This document shows positions 57,085 through 63,477 of a stretch of DNA of 64,000 bases, in pieces. Location: contig CAJOCL010000001.1 of assembly GCA_905233565.1 (NCBI GenBank), positions 1 through 64,000 of the forward strand, given 5' to 3'. Position 1 is the stretch's first letter. Each line of letters begins with the position of its first letter. This stretch comes from an uncultured Synergistales bacterium (GTDB lineage: Bacteria; Synergistota; Synergistia; Synergistales; Aminobacteriaceae). The notes beneath the pieces are model-generated. The model saw nothing but the letters and a program-made list of their open reading frames with translations. It was not told where the DNA came from and ran no database searches. Position numbers and translations under genes: made by a program.

Positions 57085-58059
57085 ATGCGGTCAGGCGTTA
57101 TTCATTCCATAATGTTCGGAAGGCTGGGAAATCAGTTATTCAAATATGCTTTTGCCAGAGCGTTGCAGCTCAAGTTTTACCCGGATTATCACATAAATAT
57201 AAATTTCTATCATTACATTAATTACAGTGAGCAGGAAAAACGGCAGGGGTTTATAAATTCCCTGAAAGATTTCAAAATAAGCAGTGATGTAACATATAAT
57301 TGTGATAACACAAAGAAAATCAGGACACCTTTACAATTTATATTCGCTGCTTTGCGTTTATTTCTCGAAAAAATTTTATCTTCAGGAATGATTAACCGTT
57401 TAGACACGAAACTGTTTCAGCCGTTATTCAACAAAGCAGGACTGTATAACCCTCTCAATGATGCCTCATACGTCCGCCCCCTCCCTTCACGGTCAAAAAT
57501 TATAATATGCGCTTCAAATTTTGAGGCATATAAATATTTTGATGATATAAGGGATATTTTGCTCGATGAGTTCACGCCCATACATGATGTTTTGCCCCAT
57601 AACAAAGCCCTTCTTGAAGAAATAAAAAAATCAGAGTCAGTATGCGTAACGATAAGGCGCGGTGATTTCCTGTCAGAAAAATATATCTCTGAACTTAACG
57701 TCTGCAGCTCAGAATATTTCAATCAGGCCATGAAAGAAATACAAAAAGAAATCCCAAACTGCAAATTTTTTATATTCTCAGATGACATTGAAGACGTTAA
57801 AAAGACGATGAATTTTCCAGATGACGCAGTATACGAATCAGGCGATGACCCTGTATGGGAAAAATTGCGCCTGATGTACAGCTGCAAGCACTTTATAATC
57901 AGCAACTCAACATTCAGCTGGTGGGCTCAATATCTGAGCAGGAACGAAAATAAAATCGTTTACGCTCCGTCCCCCTGGCACTGGGGCAGTAAAGATTACT
58001 CAGGAATATACACGCCGAATATGAGGACTATAAAATGCCGCTGCTTTCATGGGATATAA
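57085..58059 (+). CDS. Glycosyltransferase family 11 (alpha-1,2-fucosyltransferase-like)
   Basis: This is a 324-residue GT11 enzyme that transfers fucose from GDP-fucose to a galactose residue, probably for a surface glycan. The family motifs are visible: MFGRLGNQLFKYAFARAL at the N-terminus, VTIRRGDF (motif I, GDP-fucose binding), KFFIFSDDIEDVKK and ISNSTFSWWAQYLS. It is an isolated gene with no other glycan genes around, though a phosphomannomutase family gene at 35.4 kb could supply GDP-sugars. It is AT-richer than its neighbours to the left. Acquisition by transfer is possible. Confidence 0.9.
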   Translation: MRSGVIHSIMFGRLGNQLFKYAFARALQLKFYPDYHININFYHYINYSEQEKRQGFINSLKDFKISSDVTYNCDNTKKIRTPLQFIFAALRLFLEKILSSGMINRLDTKLFQPLFNKAGLYNPLNDASYVRPLPSRSKIIICASNFEAYKYFDDIRDILLDEFTPIHDVLPHNKALLEEIKKSESVCVTIRRGDFLSEKYISELNVCSSEYFNQAMKEIQKEIPNCKFFIFSDDIEDVKKTMNFPDDAVYESGDDPVWEKLRLMYSCKHFIISNSTFSWWAQYLSRNENKIVYAPSPWHWGSKDYSGIYTPNMRTIKCRCFHGI

Positions 58060-58080: not shown

Positions 58081-59052
58081 TTAATATTTGCTTAAAATTT
58101 CCTCCGCAAAACTTTTCACAATTTTTTTGAGTTCTTCAGGCTCTATAACTTCAATATGAGGTGCGCCCGACATAACCCATCTTGCAACTTCATACAAATT
58201 TGGAACTTCAGCAGTTAAAATGATTCCTCCTTCTTTGCTGTTTTCAATTTTTTGAGTGGGATGCCATTTAATTTCACGCAATGATTCCGCTAAAGGTTCT
58301 GTGATATGAACTTTGATTAAAAATTTTTCAAAGCCCGGTATTACGTGCCATGCCGATAAAACATAATCTTCCGTAAATCCTGCTTCTTCAGGCAAAATAT
58401 ATTTTTCATCTGAAATTGACGCATTTATTATTCTGCTAATCCTGTGAATACCCAAATTTTCAAATTTATGATTATATGAAACCATATACCAGGCATTACC
58501 TCTGAAATAAAAATCATAAGGCGATAAAATCCATTGTTTAGGCATTTTTTCAGGAGCTGAATACAAAATATTTAAGGCTCTTTTTGAGTGTTTAGCTTCA
58601 ATTAACGTGTTAAAAATTTCTGCGTCGATTTCGGCAATAGGCAGACTCATCATTGTTGTTCGGACTATTTCTGAACCATGTGAGATAATTTTTTCGGGAA
58701 TATAATTTCTCAACTTATCCCATAAAGAATCAGAGGATTTTTTCAAATGAGGCAGGAAATGAGCAGCCATACTTAAACCGGCTGTTAATGCTTCGATTTC
58801 ATGTTTTGTAATCTTGAGATTTAATTGAAAAGTTCCCGCACTCTCCATTACATATAATTTTTTGTGAGAATTGTATTTTATATCAGCACCGTAAACACCG
58901 CGCAAATAATATAAATCATTTTGAAAAGTGCGGTTACTTGTATATTCTCCCACTGAATATATTTCACTATGAGACGCTTTTACTTTTGACTGCAAAAACG
59001 CCATAACCTTTGAAAGCCTGTCATGCCTTATTGATGTCATATCTTTTGGCAT
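58081..59052 (-). CDS. WYL-domain transcriptional regulator
   Basis: This is a 323-residue regulator with an N-terminal winged helix (RLSKVMAFLQSKVKASHSEI; SNRTFQNDLYYLRGVYG) and a central WYL domain, where the motif reads WYMVSYN with IHRISRI after it. A C-terminal WCX-like domain follows (VARWVMSGAPHIEVIEPEEL). WYL proteins often control defence loci such as BREX and CBASS by sensing a nucleic-acid or nucleotide ligand. I chose the ATG at 59052, with AAGGAG upstream. A terminator separates it from the nuclease gene, so it is probably a separate unit that regulates the island. Confidence 0.9.
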   Translation of the reverse strand: MPKDMTSIRHDRLSKVMAFLQSKVKASHSEIYSVGEYTSNRTFQNDLYYLRGVYGADIKYNSHKKLYVMESAGTFQLNLKITKHEIEALTAGLSMAAHFLPHLKKSSDSLWDKLRNYIPEKIISHGSEIVRTTMMSLPIAEIDAEIFNTLIEAKHSKRALNILYSAPEKMPKQWILSPYDFYFRGNAWYMVSYNHKFENLGIHRISRIINASISDEKYILPEEAGFTEDYVLSAWHVIPGFEKFLIKVHITEPLAESLREIKWHPTQKIENSKEGGIILTAEVPNLYEVARWVMSGAPHIEVIEPEELKKIVKSFAEEILSKY

Positions 59053-59166: not shown

Positions 59167-60276
59167 TTAAGCATTTTGCTGAGAAGAATTTATATTTTCG
59201 AGATATTCCTTGATTTTTTCAGCACAGTTTCCCGCAAACTTTTTCATGTTTTCTTCATCACAAAGCTCACATAAGTGAGCTACATTCTTGAAATTCACAC
59301 AATAACCATTCATGCCGCCTTTTTCAAAGTCACCCCATTTGCGGCCATGTAGCGTAAAATATCCGATGAATGCAGAAGTATAGCCATACCATTCTTCAAC
59401 ATCAAAGAACACGCCGGGTTTTGTGTTATCATGTTCGCAGTTGTGGTAAAAAAGGCCACGTACTGCCTTAGATTGATTTTTATAATAAAAATCATTATTT
59501 TCCGGCTTATATTCTTTTTCCAGCATTTTTTCAACAGTCTCAAACAATTTTGTCTGTAGAACAGTTCCTATAGCTGACAAAATACTTTTTGCGGCTCTCT
59601 GATTTTCGGGAGACTCTCTAATTAATTTGGCAATTTCCATTTTTAATTTTTCCTCCTTAGTCTGTTGTTCAGTAAATTTTTTCACTGCCTCAGCAAATTG
59701 CAGCAGTACTTCTCGAAGCGGTGCATTTCTTATTACTTCCGGCTGACCTATGCAATATGAAATCCAATCGTATATGTCATTTTTGAACGATATACATTTC
59801 ATATCTTCTGCAGGCACTCCGTACGAGCTTTCAGGGCTTGGCGCATGGCCGTCGGGGGTGAGGTAAAAAATCTTTGCATCATCGTCATATTTTTTTGCTT
59901 CCTCGTAATAGTCTTTGCATTGCTCGTTGAGATCCCATGCCCATATTTTTACTTCAATCGGAATAAAAAGCTTTTTGCTTCTGATTACAATATCAATTTT
60001 GCGCCCGTTTTGAGTGTAATATTCTATGTAAACTTCCGCTTGTTCAAGTTTGTAGTCAGGAATATCTAACTCAAGTACTTTTCTTACAAATAACTTGAGA
60101 AAAAATTCCCTCTCTAGGATTTTACACAAAAAACGGCATATCTTCCTTTCGTCTGCCTCAACGCCTAAAGCCTCAAAAACGTTGAAGCGTTCTGTAACTC
60201 TTTTATTTTCGTGTACAGCGTCAAATTCTTTCAACTGTCTTGAAACTTCTTTTAACAGATGTTCAACTTCCTGCAT
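59167..60276 (-). CDS. PD-(D/E)XK nuclease family protein
   Basis: This is a 369-residue protein of the PD-(D/E)XK superfamily (similar to the PDDEXK_4 type). The N-terminal VFEALGVEADERKICRFLC is followed by the catalytic core: the Asp in GRKIDIVIRSKK and the ExK in FIPIEVKIWAWD. Then comes an alpha-helix with a Gln, as expected for the family (NEQCKDYYEEAKKY). The C-terminal half is not recognised. The start is ATG at 60276, with AAAGGAG seven bases upstream; the frame start at 60306 lies inside the FtsZ-like gene. It follows that gene by 16 bases. It is a DNase by family, but the specificity is unknown. Confidence 0.88.
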   Translation of the reverse strand: MQEVEHLLKEVSRQLKEFDAVHENKRVTERFNVFEALGVEADERKICRFLCKILEREFFLKLFVRKVLELDIPDYKLEQAEVYIEYYTQNGRKIDIVIRSKKLFIPIEVKIWAWDLNEQCKDYYEEAKKYDDDAKIFYLTPDGHAPSPESSYGVPAEDMKCISFKNDIYDWISYCIGQPEVIRNAPLREVLLQFAEAVKKFTEQQTKEEKLKMEIAKLIRESPENQRAAKSILSAIGTVLQTKLFETVEKMLEKEYKPENNDFYYKNQSKAVRGLFYHNCEHDNTKPGVFFDVEEWYGYTSAFIGYFTLHGRKWGDFEKGGMNGYCVNFKNVAHLCELCDEENMKKFAGNCAEKIKEYLENINSSQQNA

Positions 60277-60292: not shown

Positions 60293-61078
60293 TTATTTTT
60301 TATCATTCATTCCTGCGATGAAAGCAACCTGCAAAACATCGCCCATTTCATCGTCAATTATATGTCCCCATATAATTTGAGCATCAGAGGCAGTATTTTC
60401 TTCAAAAATCTCTGCAGCGTCTGACATTTCGCTTAATGAAACTGCACCGCCTGTTGTTATGTTCAGAAGAACCCGTTTAGCCTGTTTGATTTCTCCGCAC
60501 ATATTCATGGCTTGCAATGCGGCTATTTTTGCTCTGTTATCTCCTTCAGCGTGGCCTGCTCCATAAAATGCCGTGCCAGTATCTTGAAGAATAGCTTTAA
60601 TGTCTTCAAAATCAAGATTTACAAATCCCGATTTCGTGATTAGGTTTGCAATGCTTTCAACAACATTTTGTGAAGATTTTATCTGTTCGTCAAAAGATTT
60701 TTCTTCATCAAATGAAATTAAAGCATCGGAGGCTTCTTTGAATTTTGCTTTTAATTCCTCATTATTACTGAGAAAAATTCCGATAGTTAATTTGTCTGCT
60801 TCCTTAGAGGCTTTTGCCATATTCGGAGTAAGGGGGCTGTCTCCGATAACAAAAATTACGTCCGAATCCATAAAATTTTTGTCAATAATTTCTTTGCATT
60901 CGTCAGAATTATTAACCTTGAATTTCAACGGAGTTTTGAATAAATCCAAAATCTCATCGCTTGCCTGAAATCTTACGTCAGCAAATTCAACGCCCTCAAT
61001 TTTTCCGAGCATTTGTTCAACAACCTGACAACCTTTTCTGCCTACACCTAATGCGACAATTTTTTCATTCGTCTGCAT
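60293..61078 (-). CDS. Short divergent FtsZ/tubulin-like protein
   Basis: This 261-residue protein aligns with FtsZ over most of its length but is much shorter. The N-terminus IVALGVGRKGCQVVEQML replaces the T1 GGGGN loop. Residues 71-103 take the place of the tubulin signature strand, but the GGGTGTG motif is lost (GDSPLTPNMAKA). The T7 loop GFVNLDFEDI keeps Asn154, Asp156 and Asp159. GAGHAEGDNRAKIAALQAM and the strands VLLNITTGGAVSLSEM and VAFIAGM follow the FtsZ core. GTP binding is doubtful; polymer contact through T7 may remain. It may be close to the FtsZ-like families described for membrane remodelling. It is the third gene of the island operon. Confidence 0.85.
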   Translation of the reverse strand: MQTNEKIVALGVGRKGCQVVEQMLGKIEGVEFADVRFQASDEILDLFKTPLKFKVNNSDECKEIIDKNFMDSDVIFVIGDSPLTPNMAKASKEADKLTIGIFLSNNEELKAKFKEASDALISFDEEKSFDEQIKSSQNVVESIANLITKSGFVNLDFEDIKAILQDTGTAFYGAGHAEGDNRAKIAALQAMNMCGEIKQAKRVLLNITTGGAVSLSEMSDAAEIFEENTASDAQIIWGHIIDDEMGDVLQVAFIAGMNDKK

Positions 61079-61081
61079 TCT

Positions 61082-61270
61082 CTATTCTCCTTCCTTAATT
61101 GCATTATGCTTAAAATTGTTCTTAGTTATACCATAAATATTTCTTTGTTTACGTGTCAATTTTTCTTTTGAGGCTCTTTCAGCTTGCAATGCTGACATTT
61201 CAAAATTATTAACTGTTAAAAAATTTCTCATAGTTTTAGAGGGAATACATGCTATTACTTTTTCATTCAT
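61082..61270 (-). CDS. 62-residue protein of the AAA/FtsZ-like operon
   Basis: This small basic protein begins MNEKVIACIPSKTMRNFL and has a charged, helical middle (SALQAERASKEKLTRKQRN). It is not recognised. The start codon overlaps the AAA gene stop (ATGA), and the stop lies three bases before the FtsZ-like gene start, so it is translated as part of the operon. Its constant position between an ATPase and an FtsZ-like protein suggests an adaptor or inhibitor; this is inference. Confidence 0.8.
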   Translation of the reverse strand: MNEKVIACIPSKTMRNFLTVNNFEMSALQAERASKEKLTRKQRNIYGITKNNFKHNAIKEGE

Positions 61271-63477
61271 GATAGAAAACCTGCCTTAATTTTTTCGTGC
61301 TTCATTGACATTTCACGCCTTAAAGCATCGATTAAAATTTCATGCGTTGTCGTTCTTTCATTCGATAATAACGAACTGTATTGCGAACGTACTGAATGAA
61401 AATCTCCCGGAGTAAGCCTTGTAAAAGTTTTTAATTCTCGTATAAGCTCTGAGGGAAGTTCATTTTTGCACAGAGGTTTTAATAACGAATTATAAAGTGC
61501 TAAGACTTGTGAAGTTCCTGAATAATCGAATTTGATTTTATAAGAGAAACGTCTTACTGAGGCCGGATCAAGTTCGTTAATTCTGTTTGTTGTGCAGATA
61601 CAAAAACATTTACATTCTTCAAGATTGACGAGAAACTCATTAACGAAACTGACTTCCCAAGAATGCACAGCCATATCACGGGAATATAAAAATGTATCAG
61701 CCTCATCAATTACAAGCACTGCACCTTCATTTTCAGCGTTGCGGAAAGCTCTTGCAATCCTTTTTTCAGTTTCGCCCACAAAACAGTCTTGCAAATCGCT
61801 TGCTCTCTGAATAAAACATTCTCTGTCAAGTTCGTGAGCTATATGTTTTGCCAATGCAGTCTTGCCAGTACCGGGAGGCCCGTAAAATAACATTGTTGCA
61901 CAGCCTCCTTCAATTTTAGATTTTGCGCTTTTCATAAATTTGTCAGCCCTCAAACATCTTTGCATTAAATCAGAAATTAACGCCCCGTCAAGAGTAAGTC
62001 CGTCAAGCGTAAAATCTTTTACTTCATCCCCGACTCTGCGAATTATTTTCTCACCTCCTCTCAAAAATGTTGTGTATGCTTTCATTGAACATTCAACAGC
62101 CGGCACAAATTCATCACCGCGATATTCGAGAGTTTCAGCCCTATCTATAGAACTTTCAATAACTGCTGCAGGAACTTCATAATTTTTTGCGAGTGATTTT
62201 ATTTGAGGGACTGTGAAATATTTTTCAACTTTATGACGCTTGATTATGTCATTAAATAATTTTTCACGTTCGTTTCTTCCGGGAGCTTCAAAGAATACAC
62301 TGAATAAAAATCTTCTCATGATTGACGGGTGAATATGATCAACGTGATTCGTTATCCAAATAACATGATTTTTAGGCCTCTCAAGCAGAGTAGTGAGCCA
62401 TAATTTATCTTTGCCGTTTTCCTGTTGAGAATCTCTAAGGCTTGTATCTAAAATTTTTTCAGCCTCATCGACAACAACAAAACTTCCCGGATGTTTTGAA
62501 GCTATATTCAAACATGCTATTACTGATGTAGCCGAAGCAAATACTTCATAGTCTCGTACATTTATTGTAAATGCTTTAATGCCAAGAGCTTTTGAAAGGC
62601 TGCGGGCGAAAGTTGTTTTGCCTGTACCCGGAAGGCCGTACAGCATTATATGGACAGGAGCAGAACTTTTTGACTTCAAAAGACGGACAATATAATTTAA
62701 TTCATCTTTTTTGATACTAAAATTTTCAAGCGGTAAAGTTTCACCTTTCATTTGAATGCAGAATAAATTTTGCGGATCAATTTCAGGTTGCTCAAAAATC
62801 TTTATTATTGTGTCATCAAAACGAACTCCCTTGTCATTAAAACGAACTCCATTTCCGCCTTGTATTCCTGTGAAGACTTGTAAAATTTTACAAGTCTCAA
62901 GTTCATTTATGGCATTGTCAAGTCTGAAGATATTCATGTTTAGAATGCACGCAAGAATTTTTTTGTTTCGTGGTCTCCATACATCAATAACATTACCAAA
63001 CCAATTGTCAGTATATAAATTTGTCTCGTATATATACGCAAACTCCAAAAAATCCAAAGCGTCATTACTTAAACCGAAAAATTTTTCAAATTTTTTCCGA
63101 ATAACCTCATAATTTTTAGCATCAGAAGTTTTGTATTTTGAAATTTCTTCGCAGATTTTCAATGCCTGTGTCATGATAAAACTTCTAACATAGGGGCATT
63201 CATCAGCAGCTTCAGATAATTCTCTGCTTAGCGCATCATGGTGGCGGTATCCTTGAACTTGATAAAGCAGCTTAAGAGCTTCTTGTTTTTCCGGAATATC
63301 ACGTTCACCTTTTACATTGTTAATTACATTACGCAACAAGTGTCTTAAATTTCCGCCCATATTATCAAGATATTCAAAAAAACGACTACCGACCTCGTCA
63401 GCCGTAAAATATTTTGCCCTTAACAATCTTGCCATATATAAAGCCGCTTTAGCATCTTCATATAAAATCTCACTCAT
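61267..63477 (-). CDS. Tandem AAA+ ATPase
   Basis: This 736-residue protein has an N-terminal helical domain (~1-250) of unknown role and two AAA+ modules. Module 1 has Walker A GLPGTGKT (~281) and Walker B FVVVDEAEKIL (~333). Module 2 has Walker A GPPGTGKT (~533), Walker B AVLVIDEADTF (~587) and arginine finger residues in ASVRRFSYKI. The layout recalls p97/ClpB-type remodellers but there is no protease or substrate domain. A seven-residue in-frame duplication (VRFNDKG / VRFDD) lies at ~211-221. The start is ATG at 63477, with AAGGAAATA upstream; a longer open frame to 63561 has no ribosome site. It is first in the island operon. Confidence 0.87.
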   Translation of the reverse strand: MSEILYEDAKAALYMARLLRAKYFTADEVGSRFFEYLDNMGGNLRHLLRNVINNVKGERDIPEKQEALKLLYQVQGYRHHDALSRELSEAADECPYVRSFIMTQALKICEEISKYKTSDAKNYEVIRKKFEKFFGLSNDALDFLEFAYIYETNLYTDNWFGNVIDVWRPRNKKILACILNMNIFRLDNAINELETCKILQVFTGIQGGNGVRFNDKGVRFDDTIIKIFEQPEIDPQNLFCIQMKGETLPLENFSIKKDELNYIVRLLKSKSSAPVHIMLYGLPGTGKTTFARSLSKALGIKAFTINVRDYEVFASATSVIACLNIASKHPGSFVVVDEAEKILDTSLRDSQQENGKDKLWLTTLLERPKNHVIWITNHVDHIHPSIMRRFLFSVFFEAPGRNEREKLFNDIIKRHKVEKYFTVPQIKSLAKNYEVPAAVIESSIDRAETLEYRGDEFVPAVECSMKAYTTFLRGGEKIIRRVGDEVKDFTLDGLTLDGALISDLMQRCLRADKFMKSAKSKIEGGCATMLFYGPPGTGKTALAKHIAHELDRECFIQRASDLQDCFVGETEKRIARAFRNAENEGAVLVIDEADTFLYSRDMAVHSWEVSFVNEFLVNLEECKCFCICTTNRINELDPASVRRFSYKIKFDYSGTSQVLALYNSLLKPLCKNELPSELIRELKTFTRLTPGDFHSVRSQYSSLLSNERTTTHEILIDALRREMSMKHEKIKAGFLS
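62811..62850. repeat. Direct repeat within the AAA gene (19-base units, 21-base period)
   Basis: TGTCATCAAAACGAACTCC (62811-62829) and TGTCATTAAAACGAACTCC (62832-62850) differ at one base. They keep the frame and give a seven-residue duplication in the N-terminal domain of the AAA protein. It is probably a slippage duplication. Confidence 0.7.

Follow-up and report, generated by a model that had tools for sequence, protein, structure and literature searches.

The window, a stretch of 64,000 nucleotides, codes for an FtsZ-like protein with altered GTP-binding loops whose gene lies beside that of a nuclease, and the question raised by this locus is what such a protein does in a genome that codes for a normal ftsZ as well. 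The preliminary description had placed this gene, hereafter called FZL, at 60293-61078 with a product of 261 residues; the position and length stand, and the strand is corrected to minus. The features of the locus are as follows.

58081..59052, minus strand: WYL-WCX transcriptional regulator, from profile matches
59167..60276, minus strand: PD-(D/E)XK nuclease (PDDEXK_4 in Pfam, 9e-25; PADLOC candidate PDC-S26, 3e-58)
60293..61078, minus strand: FtsZ-like pseudo-subunit gene (FZL), ATG at 61078, 261 aa
60314..60577, minus strand: FtsZ C-terminal domain (PF12327) of FZL, from Pfam
60602..60628, minus strand: retained T7 (synergy) loop of FZL, GFVNLDFED, residues 151-159, from conservation among paralogues
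60809..60844, minus strand: replaced T4 nucleotide signature of FZL, residues 79-90, from alignment with the genome's own FtsZ
61082..61270, minus strand: 62-aa open reading frame, related to a 207-209 aa family but with an internal deletion
61267..63477, minus strand: tandem AAA ATPase (Pfam AAA, 8.2e-46); the open reading frame extends to 63561 and the ribosome site favours the start at 63477

With their starts placed by ribosome sites, the genes form a closely packed operon in the order AAA ATPase, 62-aa open reading frame, FZL, nuclease and WYL regulator. The first two overlap by 4 bp, a gap of 3 bp separates the 62-aa frame from FZL, and 16 bp separate FZL from the nuclease gene. A strong ribosome site, AAGGAAGGAG, is found 5' of FZL. 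The open reading frame of the nuclease extends to 60306, and a ribosome site (AAAGGAG) favours the start at 60276; its PDDEXK_4 match scores 88.1 bits against a cut-off of 22.3, and the D...ExK motif is intact (KIDIVI...IEVK). The AAA ATPase resembles IetA in its ATPase domain only. In genome G009, members of the 207-209 aa family to which the 62-aa frame is related are encoded between the AAA gene and the FZL orthologue. Scans for promoters and terminators gave results at chance level. Relatives have a conserved left flank (54.3-57.0 kb in the window), and a family 11 glycosyltransferase gene (57085-58059, plus strand) lies between it and the module. In none of five relatives checked does the right flank adjoin the left, and so no clean insertion site is shown for the window locus.

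The nucleotide loops of FZL were compared with those of the genome's own FtsZ (G000:C14, 434 aa). As the preliminary description had held, the GGGTGTG signature is lost: T4 of FZL is GDSPLTPNMAKA (reading GDSPLTP) where the host FtsZ carries GMGGGTGTGAAP. The T1 Gly loop, also reported there as altered, is GVGRKGCQ against GVGGGGGN in the host protein. In the same alignment the T2 loop is changed, a deletion has removed T3, about 20 aa long, and T5/H6 is shorter; neither the tubulin signature GGGTG(T/S)G nor the other nucleotide loops are recognisable in FZL. The N-terminal half had no family match by sequence, and the Pfam Tubulin GTPase domain gave no hit. Farther along the chain, Pfam FtsZ_C matches residues 168-255 (E 9.5e-16), and the FtsZ equivalog TIGR00065 matches residues 137-256 with 84.1 bits, far below its curated cut-off of 295.2. 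The T7 residues Asn154, Asp156 and Asp159, described earlier as intact, are so: they align with N207, D209 and D212 of E. coli FtsZ, and the catalytic Asp residues of the loop are in place. The T7 loop is retained in most paralogues; among 20 of them D159 never varies, and conservation of G151, F152, N154 and D156 is 90% or higher. The accompanying statement that the FtsZ core following T7 is intact holds for the C-terminal domain and fails for the C-terminal tail, as FZL stops just past that domain and the conserved tail, which binds FtsA/SepF in FtsZ, is missing. FZL is a one-faced FtsZ pseudo-subunit: it has kept the T7/polymerisation face, its GTP loops can no longer be recognised, and it lacks the membrane-tether tail.

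The structure of FZL was predicted with AlphaFold2 from an alignment made up of the window protein and FtsZ proteins from viral and genome contigs, close paralogues being left aside. The model has a pLDDT of 91.2 and a pTM of 0.90, and its best matches with Foldseek and VIA are all FtsZ, with 8h1o at Z 34.0 and rmsd 1.9 over 257 residues and E. coli FtsZ similar. An FtsZ/tubulin fold is thus predicted along the whole chain. The match of the model to FtsZ implies that the fold was retained through the N-terminal half, although profiles find no family there by sequence; since the rows of the alignment were all FtsZ proteins, the predicted fold of this half carries some bias. The preliminary description had proposed two structural checks, and both came out as it had anticipated, the fold being tubulin/FtsZ-like by model and structural matches and the nucleotide pocket bearing the loop replacements and losses given above.

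A profile search found at least one FtsZ-like paralogue in 20 of the 43 genomes of the genus; the distribution is patchy, with none in the other 23. The 58 genomes from other genera and families of the order gave essentially only full-length FtsZ-type matches. The family takes several forms, namely FtsZ-like proteins of 207-342 aa, FtsZ-like/ankyrin fusions (about 780-970 aa), short proteins that consist of the C-terminal domain only (about 140-180 aa), and one FtsZ-like protein fused to a PD-(D/E)XK nuclease domain (L056), in which the Glu of the ExK motif is lost, so that this fusion may be dead. A tree built on the C-terminal domain places 24 of the 25 paralogues in one clade (99/99) that branches off the genus's own FtsZ lineage, and independent origins for them were rejected; FZL belongs to this genus-restricted radiation. 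The N-terminal half is strongly divergent between paralogues. The exception is a tandem ftsZ duplicate of 297 aa directly upstream of ftsZ in genome G039 (L045 3018-3911), in which GGSTGSG replaces GGGTGTG and T3 is lost, an independent start on the same path. An origin from phage or plasmid was rejected: the family profile found no relative in IMG/VR, and the matches listed among phage and plasmid sequences resembled ordinary FtsZ and were less than 41% identical. The FtsZ-like/ankyrin modules of five genomes (L040, L041, L043, L044, L046) adjoin a flagellin gene. The ankyrin part of one of these, L046, matches the PADLOC candidate PDC-M72A (5e-39), a match that may reflect the repeat alone. 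Four C-terminal-domain-only proteins of 139-144 aa (L047, L049, L050, L053) adjoin the carbon-starvation gene cstA, and a tandem AAA gene or AAA remnant is nearby in three of these four loci.

Conservation on the retained face was measured on the longitudinal face of the C-terminal domain, defined by segments named in PMC9765660, PMC5414002 and PMC11938149: in E. coli numbering, residues 199-215 (T7 loop), 268-277 (start of H10) and 292-299 (end of S9). At host-conserved columns the paralogues share the residue of host FtsZ in 76% of cases within this face and in 45% outside it (Mann-Whitney p 4e-4), and 11 of 35 face columns are at least 85% conserved among paralogues against 3 of 82 others (Fisher p 9e-5); columns and paralogues are not independent, and these p-values therefore serve as guides. 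When the mask was shifted circularly, the observed difference was reached in 3 of 116 shifts; when only the C-terminal-domain-only forms were considered, 12 of 115 shifts reached it. Host FtsZ has no such bias in conservation (p 0.88). The retention of the T7/polymerisation face is borne out by this selective conservation, and the pattern, as read from the sequences, is that of a subunit with one face kept and the other lost.

The neighbours of the FtsZ-like genes recur across genomes. WYL orthologues, grouped at 70% identity or more and counted where the contig permits a check, share a gene cluster with an FtsZ-like gene in 9 of 9 loci (G000, G004, G010, G030 twice, G034 twice, G035 and G037); distant WYL homologues (54% identity or less) were not clustered with one in the loci examined. 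Four of these distant regulators (L139, L141, L142, L144) adjoin ankyrin-repeat proteins without an FtsZ domain. AAA orthologues accompany an FtsZ-like gene in all 7 of the loci that could be checked, a count that includes G009, joined across a contig gap, and G026, where the AAA gene is a remnant. The nuclease partner is of the PDDEXK_4 type in G000, G004, G010, G028, G034, G035 and G037, and of the Mrr_cat type after WYL in G030 and G034 and also beside a short form in G002. A gene for a microbial PARG (ADP-ribose glycohydrolase) lies between the AAA and FtsZ-like genes in G038 (L054 2171-3019).

Selection on FZL was estimated against its 70%-identical orthologue (L037, genome G009), which shows the same lesions. 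The overall dN/dS is about 0.2 (0.20/1.0), with 0.14 for the N-terminal and 0.23 for the C-terminal half, and these ratios indicate that purifying selection acts on both halves. The window genome also holds the wreck of a second copy (G000:C6:71189-71420; L005 7190-7420), located between genes for an aspartokinase and a metallo-hydrolase-like protein, in which 125 bp of the FtsZ-like gene (94% identical) are joined to 103 bp of the nuclease gene (90%).

The explanation placed first, which could well be right while falling short of probable, is that a defence-like module uses FZL as its bait or sensor. Such a role would suit a protein that retains mainly the T7/polymerisation face, lacks its GTP loops and is encoded alongside nucleases, and both the operon with its nuclease, AAA and WYL genes and the genus-wide family point in this direction. 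The FtsZ inhibitors SulA, MciZ and MinC all bind the C-terminal polymerisation face (PMC11938149), and Gp0.4 of phage T7 has been modelled on the same synergy-loop surface (PMC13423816). The face retained by FZL is the one at which FtsZ inhibitors, phage ones included, bind FtsZ, and a phage inhibitor aimed at FtsZ would bind the bait. The resulting change would be passed to the partner proteins, the nuclease, the AAA ATPase and, in fused forms, the ankyrin domain, which would attack nucleic acid or stop the cell; the WYL regulator would set the expression of the module, and a bait that no longer binds GTP would be excluded from the division ring. By analogy, a direct precedent is provided by the defence protein CapRelEbc, which is switched on by the Gp0.4-FtsZ complex (PMC13423816), and indirect signs of defence are the nuclease family, the WYL regulator, the patchy distribution and the decayed copy. 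Several points weigh against this role. PADLOC lists the nuclease and ankyrin families as no more than computational defence candidates, the AAA protein is like IetA only in its ATPase domain, the one nuclease fusion may be dead, and folding may be the reason why the T7-loop residues persist. The neighbour of the C-terminal-domain-only forms is cstA and not a nuclease gene, so that an earlier role of a different kind may lie behind the family. The more specific proposal, that a mutilated, GTP-less FtsZ encoded with nucleases is a decoy immune sensor for phage anti-division proteins, is offered as a tentative possibility.

Another explanation, somewhat unlikely on the present evidence, is that FZL caps or regulates the filaments of host FtsZ. 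Its T7 face would dock on an exposed GTP face and complete the catalytic site there, either triggering hydrolysis or capping the minus end, and the nuclease and AAA genes would act alongside in a cell-cycle or abortive response. The selective retention of the T7 catalytic residues and the polymerisation face is what such a protein would call for, C-terminal-domain-only forms could do little besides dock or cap, and the AAA gene that adjoins the FtsZ-like gene at every checkable locus belongs to a class of proteins that can remodel filaments. The polarity of the filament (PMC11938149) speaks against it, however: a subunit that has the T7 face alone would attach to the GTP face exposed at the minus end, and binding at this N-terminal face is expected to nucleate or stabilise filaments, not to inhibit them. 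A filament regulator also leaves the dedicated restriction-type nucleases unexplained, and the absence of the FtsZ-like gene from more than half of the genomes of the genus means that it is dispensable for division.

It is more doubtful that FZL acts as a folded scaffold, or in the manner of an antitoxin, and simply keeps the nuclease, or the ankyrin protein, inactive, its FtsZ ancestry being incidental. The conserved face would then bind that partner and neither FtsZ nor FtsZ inhibitors. The very tight gene order, with the nuclease 16 bp away, the loss of the FtsZ-like gene and nuclease as a pair in the decayed copy and an N-terminal half that differs strongly from one paralogue to the next would all agree with this arrangement, but the face is kept alike beside PDDEXK_4, beside Mrr and where there is no nuclease neighbour, and in C-terminal-domain-only forms as well, which makes one shared nuclease partner unlikely. 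That FZL is a functionless, decaying ftsZ duplicate is very improbable and was dismissed, for against the decayed second copy and the internally deleted 62-aa neighbour stand the low dN/dS between orthologues, a single old clade, a confident fold, intact reading frames and good ribosome sites.

Whatever its role, the family amounts to a natural experiment: across a genus, a single FtsZ duplicate has diversified while keeping mainly the binding face of well-studied inhibitors. If FZL is a decoy, bacterial immunity would guard the division machinery with a dedicated bait, a bacterial counterpart of the integrated decoys in plant immune receptors, and known FtsZ inhibitors would allow the trigger to be probed directly. 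As a cap, FZL would be a rare genetically encoded minus-end partner of FtsZ. In either case an essential GTPase has been turned into a partner of restriction-type nucleases.

Among known proteins, FtsZ itself shares with FZL the whole fold (predicted, Z 34 to 8h1o), the T7 loop and the C-terminal domain; it differs in its GGGTGTG signature, intact T1-T5 loops and C-terminal tail, whereas FZL has 261 aa and sits with a nuclease, an AAA ATPase and a WYL regulator. In the PADLOC library, where PDC-S26 and PDC-M72A are listed as candidates only, no FtsZ-like family matched FZL. Paralogues in the FtsZ superfamily and FtsZ as a co-trigger of defence are already known. As far as the literature was searched, a GTP-less FtsZ clade tied to nucleases apparently is not: no published description of a GTP-less FtsZ paralogue family was found, subscription journals lying mostly outside the search. 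CapRelEbc offers the same principle, attributed to FZL by inference, that the T7-loop face of FtsZ is seized by a phage inhibitor and a defence protein is triggered (PMC13423816); there the real host FtsZ is co-trigger of a fused toxin-antitoxin effector, while here a GTP-less paralogue lies inside a candidate module. FtsZl1 and FtsZl2 (PMC2875224) are likewise additional FtsZ-like genes beside a normal FtsZ, in operons with other proteins, but they are broad bacterial and archaeal families defined on the nucleotide-binding domain, and FtsZl1, for which a membrane role is predicted, is partnered by vWA, kinase and GTPase proteins. Those partners are absent around FZL, whose nucleotide loops are gone and whose partners are nuclease, AAA and WYL proteins.
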